DNA of 64,000 bases from Desulfamplus sp. GTDB lineage: Bacteria > Desulfobacterota > Desulfobacteria > Desulfobacterales > Desulfobacteraceae. The DNA is taken from NCBI GenBank assembly GCA_015232455.1, contig JADFZQ010000006.1:62001-126000 (forward strand), written 5' to 3'. The notes beneath the pieces were generated by a model. That model did not search any database. It was not told the DNA's origin and was given only the letters and a program-made list of their open reading frames with translations. Numbering within the stretch: the first letter of the stretch is position 1; every line of letters starts with the position of its first letter. Shown here piece by piece: positions 1 through 60,038 of the stretch. The position numbers and the translations under genes were made by a program.

Positions 1-104
1 CTCTAAGCGTGCATAAATTGAGCTTTTTTATATTTAAGTGGAGACGCACAGCCGTGTGTCTCTATAGTTTAGGTAAAACTCAATTTATGACCTTAAACAG
101 TATA
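1..104. repeat. MITE-like palindromic element with GTAGAGACGCAC core, copy 1
   Basis: The left arm carries CATAAATTGAGCTTTTTTAT and the right arm ACTCAATTTATGACC followed by CAGTATA, so the ends are inverted repeats. The outermost left bases lie beyond the window edge. At 38-65 sits a 28-base near-palindrome of the GTAGAGACGCAC family. The same arm and core combination recurs at 59923-60038 with the same left junction (TATATTTA next to the core). It lies just upstream of the Nudix gene. Confidence 0.75.
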
Positions 105-3466: not shown

Positions 3467-4318
3467 ATGAGTCTTAAAATCGGAGGATTTCAAAGAAACA
3501 CATTAATTGATTTTCCGGGGGTTGTGGCTTCACTTGTTTTTACACAAGGTTGTAACTTCAGGTGTCCTTACTGCCATAACCCAAGCCTTATATCCTTACC
3601 AATATTTGAATCTCCCACAACATATAATAGCTCTACCTTACCTAATAATAACAATTTTAAACTTACTAATAATACCCTTAATTTAATTGATGAGTCTGAA
3701 ATATTAGCGTTTCTTAAAAAGAGAAAAGGGTTGATAGATGGTGTTGCGATCACAGGAGGAGAGCCTACTTTGCAGCCAACTCTTGAGTCATTTTGCTTTA
3801 AACTAAAAAATATGGGGTTTAAGGTTAAAGTAGATACTAATGGAAGCAGACCCGATGTAATTGAAAACCTTATTAAACGAGAGCTTGTTGATTTTATTGC
3901 GATGGACATAAAGAGCAATAAGGAAGGTTATAGATATTTAATAGGAGCATCTGAGCAGATAGGTGTTGAAGAGAAAATAGATATTAAAAATTCAAATAAA
4001 CACGCTTTAAATAAAACTTTAAATTTTTCTTTAATAATTAAAAGTATCAAGTTAATAATTAAACAATCCCCAGCATACGAGTTTAGAACAACCTGTGTAA
4101 AACCTTTTATCACATCCGAAATCATGCCTGAAATCGGAGAGATGATAAAAGGGGCATCAAAATATGTGCTTCAGCACTGTTCAAGAAATGTCAGAATGTT
4201 TAACCCTCTATTTTTCCAAAAAAACAATCCCTATCCCGACCCTTTTTTAAGCGATGATGAGCTTGCTCATATTAGACTAATAGTAAAACCTTACGTTCAA
4301 GAATGTTTGATTAGATAA
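3467..4318 (+). CDS. nrdG: Anaerobic ribonucleotide reductase activating protein (radical SAM)
   Basis: Generates the glycyl radical on NrdD by cleaving S-adenosylmethionine at a [4Fe-4S] cluster. The cluster motif CNFRCPYC spans residues 29-36, followed by ITGGEPTLQ, the usual SAM-binding segment. The 283-residue protein is longer than typical family members. Residues 42-74 are an Asn/Ser/Thr-rich stretch inserted right after the cluster loop, and a second Lys/Asn-rich stretch lies around 163-190. Conserved sequence resumes on both sides, so the inserts are probably surface loops. It starts five bases after nrdD and has no strong binding site of its own, suggesting translational coupling. 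Confidence 0.95.
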   Translation: MSLKIGGFQRNTLIDFPGVVASLVFTQGCNFRCPYCHNPSLISLPIFESPTTYNSSTLPNNNNFKLTNNTLNLIDESEILAFLKKRKGLIDGVAITGGEPTLQPTLESFCFKLKNMGFKVKVDTNGSRPDVIENLIKRELVDFIAMDIKSNKEGYRYLIGASEQIGVEEKIDIKNSNKHALNKTLNFSLIIKSIKLIIKQSPAYEFRTTCVKPFITSEIMPEIGEMIKGASKYVLQHCSRNVRMFNPLFFQKNNPYPDPFLSDDELAHIRLIVKPYVQECLIR

Positions 4319-4483
4319 TATACTCTAAAGGTCATAAATTTAGTTTTTATTCAGTTCTTAGCCGAGGGTTAAAACCCTCGGCTAAGTTATAATAAAGAAG
4401 TCCTCTTAAGAGGACTTAAATAAAGTTAGCCCAGAGCTTTAGCTCTGGGCGATGAAAATAAAAGCTCAAATTAAGACCGTATA
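4319..4483. repeat. MITE-like element with three-hairpin cassette, copy 1
   Basis: Begins immediately after the nrdG stop. Terminal arms are TATACTCTAAAGGTCATAAA on the left and AAGCTCAAATTAAGACCGTATA on the right, inverted relative to each other. Inside are three hairpins in series: 4357-4386 (arm CTTAGCCGAGGGTT), 4398-4417 (a perfect 20-bp palindrome, half AAGTCCTCTT) and 4429-4450 (arm GCCCAGAGC). It lies between converging nrdG and uraA, where the hairpins could act as a bidirectional terminator. A second copy lies inverted at 27594-27744. Confidence 0.85.
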
Positions 4484-18814: not shown

Positions 18815-19119
18815 AATATAACTTGTCCAATTTTTCTTAGGTAAATCTAAAAAAATGAATATGATTTTTAAACTGTTAATGGATTATGCCTTATTTTGAG
18901 TGGTTAAGCCAGAATTTTTCTAATTCATAGCCTGTTTAGGTTCTACTCAATTTCGAAAAATTTATGGTGTTATTTTATTCCCACTCATTAACTATTCAAA
19001 TCCTTAAGACGAATCTACCGCAAACAGTGCTAATTCAAATTGAAGTGATAGGAAAGGTATGTTAAAAAAATCGTAGATAATGCTTTACAATTTAAGTTAT
19101 ATCAAGGAGACTATAATTT
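18815..19119. other. Divergent spacer between the hybrid kinase and MotA-like genes
   Basis: No gene is seen in this spacer, which must carry both divergent promoters. It contains a 45-base segment at 18942-18986 that recurs at 53043-53087. Confidence 0.6.
18942..18986 (+). repeat. 45-bp dispersed repeat, copy 1
   Basis: TCTACTCAATTT followed by AATTTATGGTGTTATTTTAT and TCCCACTC. It matches 53043-53087 at 41 of 45 positions. The TCAATTTAT and ATTCCCACT pieces also appear in the right arm of the element at 45738-45888, so it may be a remnant of the same element family. Confidence 0.65.
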
Positions 19120-22576: not shown

Positions 22577-22605
22577 TTAAAATTCAATATTATTAGGAGA
22601 TTAAC

Positions 22606-23001
22606 ATGATTGAAGAATCAGTTGTCAAAGCAGCAACAACGACCACAGCAGCTCCAGCAGCAAAAGTTGCAACTGCAATTCCAGCAGCAGTAAGTGCAGC
22701 AGCTCCAGCAGCAAAGGTTGCAACTGCAATTCCAGCGTCAGTAAGTGCAGCAGCTCCAGCAGCAAAGGTTGCAACTGCAATTCCAGCAGCAGTAAGTGCA
22801 GCAGCTCCGGCAGCAAAAGCTGCAACTGTAGTTCCAGCAGTTAAAGTAGCAACAGCAGCAGTTCCAACAGCAAAAGCGGCTGGAGTAGCAAAAACAGCTA
22901 TGATTTTTCCAATGTTCGGCTTATTAGCTTTAGGAGGAGTAGTAGCATTCGAGCTTTGGAAAGGCAGTAAAGATGCTCGTGAAATTAAAGAAAAGAAATA
23001 A
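22606..23001 (+). CDS. Small Ala/Pro/Lys/Val-rich repeat protein with C-terminal membrane helix
   Basis: A 131-residue protein of very biased composition. After a 13-residue head it has four tandem 17-residue repeats of the type APAAKVATAIPAAVS (51-bp units starting near 22651, 22702, 22753 and 22804, the last diverged). A Val/Ala stretch follows, then one hydrophobic helix (MIFPMFGLLALGGVVAFELW, about residues 100-119) and a charged tail KDAREIKEKK. AGGAGATTAAC gives a strong ribosome binding site. The arrangement suggests an extended Ala/Pro arm anchored by the C-terminal helix. No known family is recognised. The opposite strand is also open because of codon periodicity, but it has no credible start signal. 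Confidence 0.78.
   Translation: MIEESVVKAATTTTAAPAAKVATAIPAAVSAAAPAAKVATAIPASVSAAAPAAKVATAIPAAVSAAAPAAKAATVVPAVKVATAAVPTAKAAGVAKTAMIFPMFGLLALGGVVAFELWKGSKDAREIKEKK
22651..22854 (+). repeat. 51-bp tandem repeat, four units, inside a coding region
   Basis: Units begin with GCTCCAGCAGCAAA at 22651, 22702 and 22753, and with GCTCCGGCAGCAAA at 22804. The first three are almost identical and the fourth has drifted. Each encodes 17 residues, so copy-number change keeps the frame. Confidence 0.9.
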
Positions 23002-25897: not shown

Positions 25898-26308
25898 ATG
25901 AAACCCTCTTACGAATACAAAATAAATTATCCTATTGAAAAACCTGACACTATTAAAAAAGAGATGATTGACCCTATTGATTATGGTTATAAATCAAAAC
26001 GCACTATTGATATAACCATAAAACAGCCTGAATTTACATCTGTATGTCCAATGACAGGGCTTCCTGATGTTGGATGTATCATAATTAAATATAGGCCAGA
26101 TCAAAAAATAGTTGAGCTTAAATCATTAAAATTTTACCTACTCCAGTATCGTAATGTAGGTATGTTTTATGAGCATGTAGTTAATAGGATTTTAGATGAT
26201 CTTGTTGATATGCTTGACCCACTTTATATGGAAATTATTGGTGAATTTACGCCAAGAGGCGGTGTTAGTTCTACGGCATCAGCAGTTTACGAAAAAAATA
26301 AATCTTAA
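25898..26308 (+). CDS. queF: NADPH-dependent 7-cyano-7-deazaguanine reductase
   Basis: Reduces preQ0 to preQ1 in queuosine biosynthesis for tRNA. The 136-residue length is that of the short (type I, unimodular) form. The nucleophile is Cys50 in TSVCPMTG, with Asp57 seven residues later as in the family. The QueF signature ELKSLKFYLLQYRN, which binds NADPH and substrate, is intact. ATG with AAGGA upstream. It is a single gene; no queCDE genes are in the window. The converging dusB also acts on tRNA. Confidence 0.96.
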   Translation: MKPSYEYKINYPIEKPDTIKKEMIDPIDYGYKSKRTIDITIKQPEFTSVCPMTGLPDVGCIIIKYRPDQKIVELKSLKFYLLQYRNVGMFYEHVVNRILDDLVDMLDPLYMEIIGEFTPRGGVSSTASAVYEKNKS

Positions 26309-26344
26309 ATTTATTGCTCAGGAATTTTAATACAATCTTAAATT

Positions 26345-26372
26345 GTAGAGACACACGGCTGTGCGTCTCTAC
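26345..26372. repeat. GTAGAGACGCAC-family palindrome, copy 2
   Basis: A 28-base palindrome with two mismatched pairs (GTAGAGACACACGG at left, CTGTGCGTCTCTAC at right). It lies between the converging genes queF and dusB. The flanks hold only decayed parts of the TIR element (CTTAACGGTCAAAA at right). Confidence 0.8.
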
Positions 26373-26422
26373 TTATATTCTTAACGGTCAAAACTACCCC
26401 CTCTGGCTGTAGATAATCGAAA

Positions 26423-27593: not shown

Positions 27594-27744
27594 TAATGGG
27601 TTTAAAGATTTGAGTTTTTAATTTTTATCGCCCCGAGCTAAAGCTCTGGGTTAACTTTATTTAAGTCCTCTTAAGAGGACTTCTTTTTATAACTTAGCCG
27701 AGGGTTTTAACCCCACGGCTAAGAACTTGAGCTTTTAGAGTATA
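27594..27744. repeat. MITE-like element with three-hairpin cassette, inverted copy 2
   Basis: Reverse complement of the element at 4319-4483. It contains the GAGCTAAAGCTCTGGG hairpin, the AAGTCCTCTTAAGAGGACTT palindrome and the CTTAGCCGAGGGTTTT hairpin in matching order and spacing. The outer arm at right is shortened: TATGACC is missing and only GAGCTTTTAGAGTATA remains. It sits in the spacer upstream of dusB. Confidence 0.82.
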
Positions 27745-30287: not shown

Positions 30288-30393
30288 TTCGTTTATCTCC
30301 TTTTATGTTATCTTAAATCACATATACTCTATATCTATATTTATCTTTATAAAAGTTAGACAATAATTATAGACGTTAGACAATAAATTTTGA

Positions 30394-30426
30394 AGATTTG
30401 ATAACTTTTAAAAAGTTGTCAAATCT
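30394..30426. repeat. AGATTTGACAACTTTT hairpin family, copy after the second dus gene
   Basis: AGATTTGATAACTTTTAAAA followed by AGTTGTCAAATCT, a 33-base near-perfect hairpin located 34 bases past the stop of the minus-strand dus gene. It may serve as its terminator. Confidence 0.7.
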
Positions 30427-30459
30427 CAAATTAAAATTTAAAATCCTATCCAAATTATT

Positions 30460-39003: not shown

Positions 39004-39042
39004 TATACTGTAAGCGGTTATAAATTTAAGTTTTATGCTATT

Positions 39043-39111
39043 TATACTTTAAACGGTCATAAACTTAGCTTTTATATATACAAGACTCAATTTATGACCG
39101 AGAGCAGTATA
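39043..39111. repeat. Empty MITE-like TIR element
   Basis: The 69-base unit consists of little more than its terminal repeats: TATACTTTAAACGGTCATAA at left and ACTCAATTTATGACCG with GCAGTATA at right. This appears to be the form without an internal palindrome. A solo left arm (TATACTGTAAGCGGTTATAA) precedes it at 39004-39030. Confidence 0.8.
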
Positions 39112-39112
39112 A

Positions 39113-39145
39113 AGATTTGACAACTTTTAAAAAGTTGTCAAATCT
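39113..39145. repeat. AGATTTGACAACTTTT hairpin family, perfect copy
   Basis: AGATTTGACAACTTTTAAAA followed by AGTTGTCAAATCT. It is identical over 33 bases to 47173-47205 and abuts the right end of the empty TIR element. Confidence 0.85.
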
Positions 39146-39346
39146 ATGGCTTAAAAGTGTTCAAAGGCAAAATTACTGTTCAAAATATAACTATTGAGAT
39201 AACTATTGAGACAACTGTTTAGTAGAATAGTTAATTGTATTCTTTAATGTAAAGCATTCACGTTTTTTTTTGTCAATAAAAAATTAATGGAGAATTTTTA
39301 GCTATAGTATTATAAAAATAAACCTTAAAAAGGAGAAAAATAATAG

Positions 39347-45737: not shown

Positions 45738-45888
45738 TACACTCTGAAAGGTCATAAATTGAGGTTTTAATCTTTTTGTTCTATTACCAAATACCATAAA
45801 CGATCGGTTGTAATTGTAGTAGTAAGGTTTAACCATGGTTAAACCCTACTACAATAAAACAGCTCAATTTATTCCCACTTTGAGTATA
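45738..45888. repeat. MITE-like TIR element with GGTTTAACC palindrome
   Basis: Left arm TACACTCTGAAAGGTCATAA, right arm CAGCTCAATTTATTCCCACT then GAGTATA. The interior hairpin at 45814-45853 has arms TTGTAGTAGTAAGGTTTAAC and GTTAAACCCTACTACAA around the CCATGG centre. It lies in the bamD-kbl spacer and supplies a spurious upstream ATG to the kbl frame. Confidence 0.78.
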
Positions 45889-47154: not shown

Positions 47155-47172
47155 AACACATTTTAAACATAA

Positions 47173-47205
47173 AGATTTGACAACTTTTAAAAAGTTGTCA
47201 AATCT
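47173..47205. repeat. AGATTTGACAACTTTT hairpin family, perfect copy between converging genes
   Basis: Identical over 33 bases to 39113-39145. It sits 19 bases past kbl and 60 bases past the end of the opposing FMN dehydrogenase gene, where it could end transcription from both sides. Confidence 0.85.
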
Positions 47206-47264
47206 TATGAAAACAGTCTTGTAAAGACAATCTTATAAAAAAGTTTAACCGATTTAAAAAAAAA

Positions 47265-52958: not shown

Positions 52959-53019
52959 AGTTTTTCCATTTTTTAATGCGTTCTAATGAATGAGAATTTA
53001 ATTAATCTCTAAACTGATA

Positions 53020-53047
53020 GTAGAGACGCACGTCCGTGCGTCTCTAC
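53020..53047. repeat. GTAGAGACGCAC-family palindrome, copy 3
   Basis: A 28-base palindrome, mismatched only at the centre (GTAGAGACGCACGT at left, CCGTGCGTCTCTAC at right), next to ACTCAATTT. Confidence 0.85.
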
Positions 53048-53087
53048 TCAATTTGTAGAAATTTATGGTGTTATTTTATTCCCATTC
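53043..53087 (+). repeat. 45-bp dispersed repeat, copy 2
   Basis: Matches 18942-18986 at 41 of 45 positions and overlaps the right end of the palindrome at 53020-53047. Confidence 0.65.
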
Positions 53088-53359
53088 CTTAAGATAACTT
53101 AAATATTATCTATTTTTATCTATAAATATAACAACTATAACGAACTAACTTTAATTTAAGGTTATATCAAAGCAGACTATCTAATCAAGAGAAAAAGAAT
53201 TGTAACCAGCCGTTTTTAGGAAGGTTAAACGGAATAGGTCTGTTGATTGATTGCTTTTATTAGGTTGTTGAATTATATTAAAATAGAATGGAGTAAATAG
53301 TTACAGCTTAATTATCGTGTTTATAAATAACCTTTTTTAATAAATTATAGGAGTAAGTT

Positions 53360-58765: not shown

Positions 58766-58805
58766 AAGGTTTGACAATTTTTATAAAATTGTCAAACCTT
58801 TTATC
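58766..58805. terminator. Bidirectional terminator hairpin between foldase and LysM genes
   Basis: AAGGTTTGACAATTTT pairs with AAAATTGTCAAACCTT across a short TA loop, with an A-run before it and TTTTATC after it. It resembles the AGATTTGACAAC hairpin family with compensating changes (GG/CC for GA/TC). It lies between converging genes. Confidence 0.78.
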
Positions 58806-59922: not shown

Positions 59923-60038
59923 TATACTTCTCTCGGTCATAGGTTGAGCTTTTTATATTTAGTAGAGACGCACGGCCGTGCGTCTCTACAGTTGAACATT
60001 TTGTTGGCAAACCTCAATTTATGACCGTTTGCAGTATA
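59923..60038. repeat. MITE-like palindromic element with GTAGAGACGCAC core, complete copy
   Basis: The best complete copy. Left arm is TATACTTCTCTCGGTCATAG with GTTGAGC; right arm is CCTCAATTTATGACCG then TTTGCAGTATA. The core at 59962-59989 is a perfect 28-base palindrome (half GTAGAGACGCACGG). Both ends finish in TATA/TA, compatible with TA target-site insertion. It lies downstream of the flagellin gene. Confidence 0.85.

Follow-up and report, generated by a model that had tools for sequence, protein, structure and literature searches.

The origin and spread of short bacterial palindromic repeats are poorly understood. The RUP element of Streptococcus pneumoniae, 107 bp long, has been proposed to be moved by IS630-Spn1, and it resembles the MITE family called F1 here in its small size, in ends similar to those of an IS630 of the same genome and in a TA in the target; unlike in F1, neither a shared palindromic core nor core classes are described in the excerpted account of RUP (PMC2229807). 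The Correia (NEMIS) elements of Neisseria are, in the same excerpt, MITEs with terminal inverted repeats, a terminal TA and target-site duplication, as F1 is (PMC2229807). Their ends differ from those of F1. They are also not known to carry the 28-bp GTAG palindromes considered below. The small dispersed repeats (SDR) of cyanobacteria, described by Elhai in 2008, are reportedly very short and apparently mobile. There is some likeness to them in this analysis, in which the 28-mer GTAGAGACGTTCCATGGAACGTCTCTAC occurred at one cyanobacterial locus (L182).

A close precedent is Anabaena variabilis, in which GTAG-15 dimers lie inside long palindromes with TATAGGA ends, that is, GTAG palindromes are lodged in larger TATA-ended palindromes as they are here; unlike here, the GTAG of these GTAG-REPs is an unpaired tag and the REPs are dimeric, and in section 7 of the source there is no report of hybrids or of several arm families sharing a palindrome (PMC3733652). 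The palindromic elements of Rickettsia are, according to excerpts of three sources (PMC10969869, PMC2229807, PMC3733652), found in frame inside genes like the palindrome P1 of this study, but they measure about 105-150 bp as compared to the 28 bp of P1. Candidatus Thiomargarita nelsonii has TATA-ended MITEs thought to derive from IS630-like elements, similar to F1; unlike for F1, no parental IS was found and one of them lies in a group I intron, and palindrome exchange is not described in the excerpted text (PMC4853749). Among the literature matches listed, which consisted of titles and abstract openings and covered few subscription papers, there was no description of arm-swapped MITEs around a shared palindrome.

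The window, i.e., the whole stretch of 64,000 nucleotides of a Desulfamplus sp. genome analysed here, carries several such repeats (Table 1). They are best explained, and in our judgement quite likely, as MITEs of an IS630 element and an independent superfamily of palindromes, whose new combinations would arise by nesting followed by palindrome-to-palindrome deletion.

F1 elements and an IS630-type insertion sequence of the same genome

An earlier note on this window had described loci with common inverted ends of about 25 bp, and this observation is confirmed, while its interpretation holds in part. By direct reading, the ends TATACT-N6-GGTCATAAATTGAG are present in five F1 MITEs and, in eroded form, in one remnant (Table 1), and eleven arms (nine from the window and two from the autonomous element) were aligned to give the consensus TATACTnTAAACGGTCATAAATTGAG. 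The shortened copy that the note had listed is real and is an eroded F1 remnant with a three-hairpin core, and the core types it had named, P1, the three-hairpin cassette and the GGTTTAACC palindrome, were each located in the window.

Table 1. Positions of MITEs, solitary arms and palindromes in the window
Feature	Position	Strand	Remarks
F1 MITE, P1 core	1..104	.	left end four bases upstream of window
P1 palindrome, 3 mismatches	38..65	.	core of F1 copy 1-104
F1 MITE, three-hairpin core	4319..4483	.	abuts stop codon of ORF 3467-4318; right end shortened (GACCGTATA)
Degenerate arm of MITE family F2	18942..18991	+	
F4-type tail adjoining P1	26314..26344	-	
P1 palindrome outside F1 arms	26345..26372	.	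same intergenic space in G005 holds a complete F1-P1 MITE
F1 MITE remnant, three-hairpin core	27594..27744	.	common to G005; absent in G006
Solitary F1 half arm with TATACT	39004..39038	+	direct reading
69-bp F1 MITE, minimal core	39043..39111	.	absent in G006, as are neighbouring repeats
F1 MITE, P4 core	45738..45888	.	G006 has the empty site with a single TA
P4 palindrome (GGTTTAACC type), one mismatch from GTAGGGTTTAACCATGGTTAAACCCTAC	45822..45849	.	GTAGGGTTTAACCATGGTTAAACCCTAC recurs in genome
MITE family F2, P1 core	52984..53091	.	paralogous empty counterpart of nested copy L010
P1 palindrome in F2 MITE	53020..53047	.	outside F1 arms
F1 MITE, P1 core	59923..60038	.	common to G005; missing in G004 and G009
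P1 palindrome, perfect	59962..59989	.	core of F1 copy 59923-60038

The genome-wide search that the note had proposed found many copies rather than few, and their ends coincide with the arms. With at most three mismatches, the 14-base arm core has 19 matches in the window against 9.7 expected, a number reached in none of 100 shuffles; in the whole genome (4.35 Mb, 82 contigs) it has 128 matches (68+60) with at most one mismatch against 2+0 for the reversed control, and the longer arm TATACT-N6-GGTCATAAATTGAG has 189 (100+89) with at most two mismatches against none for the control. This longer arm is present in 12 of the 58 genomes scanned, the own genome counted, namely in seven of ten of the genus and in five others, one of which belongs to another family (G043, 11 matches) and four of which have one match each. 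Paired-arm elements in the fetched loci ranged from 69 to 392 bp in the first scan, and a wider scan gave 51 including the IS; the longest of the first scan, L024 (392 bp), reaches into an apparent gene and is probably a chance pairing. The F1 elements fall into size classes of 69 bp with the minimal core, 72 bp, 92-116 bp with P1 and 165-177 bp with three hairpins, besides the P4 class, and an internally deleted IS of 331 bp is an intermediate form. As RNA, 59923-60038 folds into a long hairpin that encloses P1 (z = -9). Within the window there was no Rfam match at gathering scores and no tRNA gene. At 22595-22889 there are also five tandem repeats with a period of 51 bp; in the frame chosen by eye, their translation would be rich in Ala.

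Many of the arm matches are found some 100 bases away from the end of a contig, and the contig ends concerned are one repeated sequence that begins a transposase gene. A 126-base probe of this IS found 26 places at 99-100% identity over at least 123 bases, in addition to shorter or weaker places. An intact internal copy at G000:C40 measures 1,124 bp between TATACT ends, and the matching terminal repeats were fully read on this one copy; an IS630/Tc1-like transposase with matching ends, which the earlier note had proposed to look for, is thus present, and the MITE ends match an autonomous IS of the same genome. The IS contains ORF1 of 141 codons and, overlapping it in the -1 frame, ORF2 of 210 codons; a run of eight A begins 35 bases ahead of ORF2. 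ORF2 scored 84.3 bits against Pfam DDE_3 (cut-off 28.6) and 124.1 bits against the IS630 transposase model NF033545 of NCBIfam (cut-off 100), to which ORF1 alone gave 46.5 bits, below the cut-off; the spacing in ORF2 is DD34E, with 34 residues separating the second D from E. The transposase is probably made from two overlapping frames joined by programmed -1 frameshifting. The site itself, where the transposase is split into two overlapping frames at the A run, is at L066:1461-1503 (G000:C40). Among 20 further, related elements, an A7-A9 run at the fixed place together with a split frame was found in six (L167, L168, L170, L172, L173 and L179, in the last of which the frames are related in the other way). 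In nine others an open frame of 147 codons or more crosses the frameshift site, where they have no A run, and L185, L193, L195, L210 and L217 fit neither pattern cleanly.

TATACT stands at both ends of the best inverted pair in 12 of 25 related elements, shifted by three bases in one, and the remaining ones have TATACC, a different pair or no ends. The nearest transposase, 94% identical, is encoded in a Desulfamplus MAG, at a locus that has the same right end as the own IS and at which the TATACT left end was not found. An identical 60-bp IS end adjoins 24 distinct flanks, which suggests that the IS630 element has been active recently. Several of these IS copies seem by eye to lie in or beside other repeats, namely an F2 arm, a three-hairpin MITE, an F4 tail, an F1 MITE and the AAGATTTGACAAC palindrome. 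At the start of contig G000:C29 (L030, L132) an IS200 transposase gene is apparently interrupted by an IS630 copy, and the contig breaks there.

The comparison with relatives, also advised by the earlier note, gave empty sites. Precise insertion at TA with duplication was found for the MITEs in two cases. At 45738-45888, G006 reads TTTAGCGAATT-TA-TATTTATT with a single TA and the window reads TTTAGCAAATT-TA-element-TA-TATTTATC; the alignment program scattered the gap here, and the TA was read by eye from both sequences. The second duplication belongs to a 72-bp F1 copy (L010) that lies inside an F2-P1 MITE, inserted at the TA within CTCTAC, the empty paralogue of the host being the F2 element of the window. 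G006 lacks the cluster of repeats near 39043, and at 59923 the alignments with G004 and G009 were too divergent for an exact boundary. The intergenic space at 26300-26420 holds a different repeat in each of three genomes, the own one, G005 (L309) and G006 (L310), the last judged by eye. The empty sites, the TA duplications and the IS with matching ends bear out the non-autonomous, TA-targeting element proposed in the note. Judged by their sequences, the loci belong, as MITEs, to an insertion sequence of the IS630 family (Tc1/mariner-like), and the IS630-type element of the same genome very probably moves them. This pair of MITE and IS would correspond to RUP with IS630-Spn1 and to the Correia elements, as these are presented in the excerpt (PMC2229807).

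Palindromic cores and their arms

The palindrome P1, GTAGAGACGCAC-N4-GTGCGTCTCTAC, has at least 111 sites in the genome with at most three mismatches, and the control has none. The more general 28-mer GTAGRG-N16-CYCTAC has 125 sites against 3 for the control, and among the 50 of them listed were P1, P5 (GTAGGGAACAACGATCGTTGTTCCCTAC), P4 (GTAGGGTTTAACCATGGTTAAACCCTAC), variants and one non-palindromic chance match. By this pattern the cores GTAGAGACG and GGTTTAACC belong to one 28-bp palindrome superfamily, and the cores P1, P4 and P5 are to be read as a separate superfamily of palindromic repeats independent of the F1 arms. P1, again with at most three mismatches, was found in all ten genomes of the genus scanned, the own one counted, at 1 to 111 sites each. 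The palindromes occur in at least three unrelated MITE families, sometimes alone, and also in frame inside genes: two of the three reading frames of P1 are open, and P1 is read as SRDARPCVST in the long open frame of an NRPS-like protein, as CRDARPCVST in that of a PKS-like protein and as VETHSRASL in that of an unassigned protein. In alignments with PDB structures, the in-frame P1 of L136 and L137 falls in variable or linker regions. No empty site lacking only the palindrome was found for the P1-bearing gene L150, for which nine relatives have no good orthologue and G002 has a 65% match beside the palindrome. Another palindrome, AAGATTTGACAACTTTTAAAAAGTTGTCAAATCTT, is present in the window at 30393-30427, 39112-39146, 47172-47206 and 58766-58800; it is also abundant in the four relatives in which it was sought, and it lies directly beside a MITE of the window and beside the intact IS at C40.

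It is possible, though unlikely, that these are palindromes of the REP/RAYT type, put into MITEs and genes by a Y1 tyrosine transposase in the manner of SDR-like hitchhikers, and that the shuffling of arms is secondary. The GTAG termini, the isolated and in-frame copies and the six Y1_Tnp matches in the genome speak for such an origin. The one Y1 protein tested among these six speaks against it, because it scored 145 bits with the IS200 model NF033573 (cut-off 55) and 42.8 bits with the RAYT model, below the cut-off of 80, and a RAYT as the driver of the palindromes was set aside on this result; with one of the six matches tested against NCBIfam, no enzyme for the palindromes was found. Moreover, the GTAG of P1, P4 and P5 is complementary to the terminal CTAC and forms base pairs when the P1 and P4 elements are folded, and none of the three has an unpaired terminal GTAG beside a stem-loop, as GTAG-REPs have in the excerpted description (PMC3733652).

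The arms were classified by scoring both sides of 100 palindrome sites with consensus sequences for the arms of four families: F1, the IS630 MITE; F2, which has the ends GGAAT/ATTCC and, in L382 and L107, both nested copies, flanking TTA; F3, with ends TATAGC/GCTATA; and F4, a single tail. The consensus sequences were written after inspection of the same sites they scored, and the threshold of each family was set at 0.5% of shuffled flanks, so that some 4 of 200 flanks would be expected to carry a false label. A classification by gapless patterns was set aside since its F2 threshold had a null rate of 6.6%. The P1 sites, 78 with at most four mismatches, were drawn from loci around the listed palindromes and arms, out of a total of at least 111 with at most three mismatches. 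They comprised F1/F1 at 25 sites, F2/F2 at 3, F3/F3 at 6, F1/F2 at 5, F1/F3 at 3 and F1/F4 at 2, with one arm at 23 and none at 11. The six P4 sites had F1/F2 arms twice, one arm three times and none once, the P4 element of the window being scored as one-armed owing to its long left linker, and the 16 P5 sites had F2/F2 arms 13 times, one arm once and none twice. An F3 MITE family with TATAGC/GCTATA ends and a P1 core was seen at L125, L134, L369, L378, L393 and L394. The "half elements", which have one arm and, opposite it, unique sequence, were also considered as products of one-ended movement, an idea dropped because several of them (L111, L122 and L140) looked by eye like degraded two-arm copies.

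The earlier note had held that arm and core moved as a unit, pointing to the junction common to copies 1-104 and 59923-60038. This junction is there on one side, as TATTTA(A) followed by GTGG or GTAG, and the 25 F1-P1-F1 sites agree with movement as a unit. Its claim of interchangeable cores stands for the most part, the cores being members of a palindrome superfamily that also occurs in two other MITE families, alone and inside genes; docking of a palindrome into an empty platform found no support, and the picture of F1 as a platform for other palindromes is modified accordingly. The linkers between arm and core differ between classes, and the "core-less" 72-bp F1 copies retain a stub of AAGTAGA or GTAGA (by eye), which identifies them as deletions of the P1 class and not empty acceptors.

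Hybrids, nested copies and a proposed route to new combinations

Hybrids, in which two arm families surround one palindrome, were seen directly. In the own genome 12 of the 100 sites were flagged and 10 were kept; L062 was rejected because its F1 match belongs to an adjacent MITE at a distance of ten bases, and L382 because it is an intact nested pair. Both sides exceed the highest null score in all ten, and both margins over the 0.5% threshold are at least 9.5 in eight, L138 and L345 having one margin of 5.0 and 5.5, respectively. Hybrids were also found at 3 of 34 P1 sites examined in G005 (53 sites by genome scan), at none of 25 examined in G004 (79 by genome scan) and at none of 24 further sites in loci of relatives; the difference between the own genome with G005 (13/134) and G004 (0/25) is not significant (p = 0.22).

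Ordinary subfamilies of IS630 MITEs with differing interiors, in which the palindromes are ancestral and no exchange took place, would account for the commonest two-arm sites, which are of a single family (F1/F1 25, F2/F2 16 and F3/F3 6 of 100), and for an arm-core junction that is constant within subfamilies. We regard this as improbable, because the arms of the three MITE families in which the P1 28-mer sits are unrelated, one and the same F2 junction (AAATTGA, then GTAG) is, by eye, occupied by P1 and by P5, and hybrids exist in two genomes. It is very improbable that the hybrids were produced by misassembly between repeats in a draft genome made from short reads. The genome does consist of 82 contigs, many of which break off at the repeated IS, but the broken ends mostly stop 123-127 bases into the IS, which suggests an assembly word length near 127, exceeding most hybrids. 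The same kinds of hybrid are also found in G005, and three loci whose flanks differ have the F1-P1-F2 kind.

The preferred reading, nesting followed by deletion between palindromes, starts from nested copies that are themselves seen. Pieces of different families are in direct contact at 6 of the 100 sites (L006, L080, L107, L139, L346 and L382), and nesting is free of deletion in L382 (F1a-P1-[F2-P5-F2]-F1b), L107 and L006. Others carry remnants of an arm. In L080, F3r-P1-F1a is directly followed by the remaining 30 bases of the F3l arm; in L429 of G005, F1a-P1-F2c is directly followed by the remaining 34 positions of F3l; and in L139, P1-F2c is directly followed by most of an F1b arm, the other side having no recognised arm. 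These remnants are the leftovers expected when a guest inserts into the arm of a host and the stretch between the palindromes is lost, and together with the nested copies they suggest insertion of MITE into MITE and subsequent deletion between the palindromes. In L097, L145 and L413 the remnant is short, the F1 end AGTATA coming after an F2 arm. Of the F2 arms of the own genome whose end can be recognised, 2 of 6 in hybrids and 1 of 34 elsewhere are followed by AGTATA (p = 0.054), the single non-hybrid arm being that of L006, itself an undeleted nested copy; with two hybrids of G005 included, the figure becomes 3 of 8 (p = 0.018), a post hoc comparison from which the other F2 arms of G005 were left out.

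As a mechanism, the IS630 transposase would recognise the TATACT-N6-GGTCATAAATTGAG ends and insert copies at TA, duplicating the TA. One MITE could thereby insert at a TA within an arm of a second one, and loss of the stretch that separates their palindromic cores could then leave a new combination of arm and core. A palindrome reads the same on both strands, so any two copies form direct repeats, and by this reasoning the deletion would be possible in any orientation. The hybrid would keep usable outer ends and may move again. The transposition and deletion events are inferred from the sequences, and it is probably through nesting and palindrome-to-palindrome deletion that arms and cores recombine. 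Host arms that left a long remnant are few; L080 fits this course in full, and L429 needs two rounds, as its opposite arm is F1 and not F3. The other hybrids have two full arms and could have originated by recombination between neighbouring or distant copies.

The genus brings together a driver IS next to 24 different flanks, relatives with empty sites, nested intermediates and hybrids, and these together make the carriage and reshuffling of REP/SDR-like palindromes by MITEs directly testable. More tentatively, and with the balance somewhat against it, the 28-bp palindrome may act as a universal joint between unrelated MITE families, continually giving rise to new mobile combinations of arm and core. 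If this is true, short bacterial repeats would evolve by the exchange of modules.
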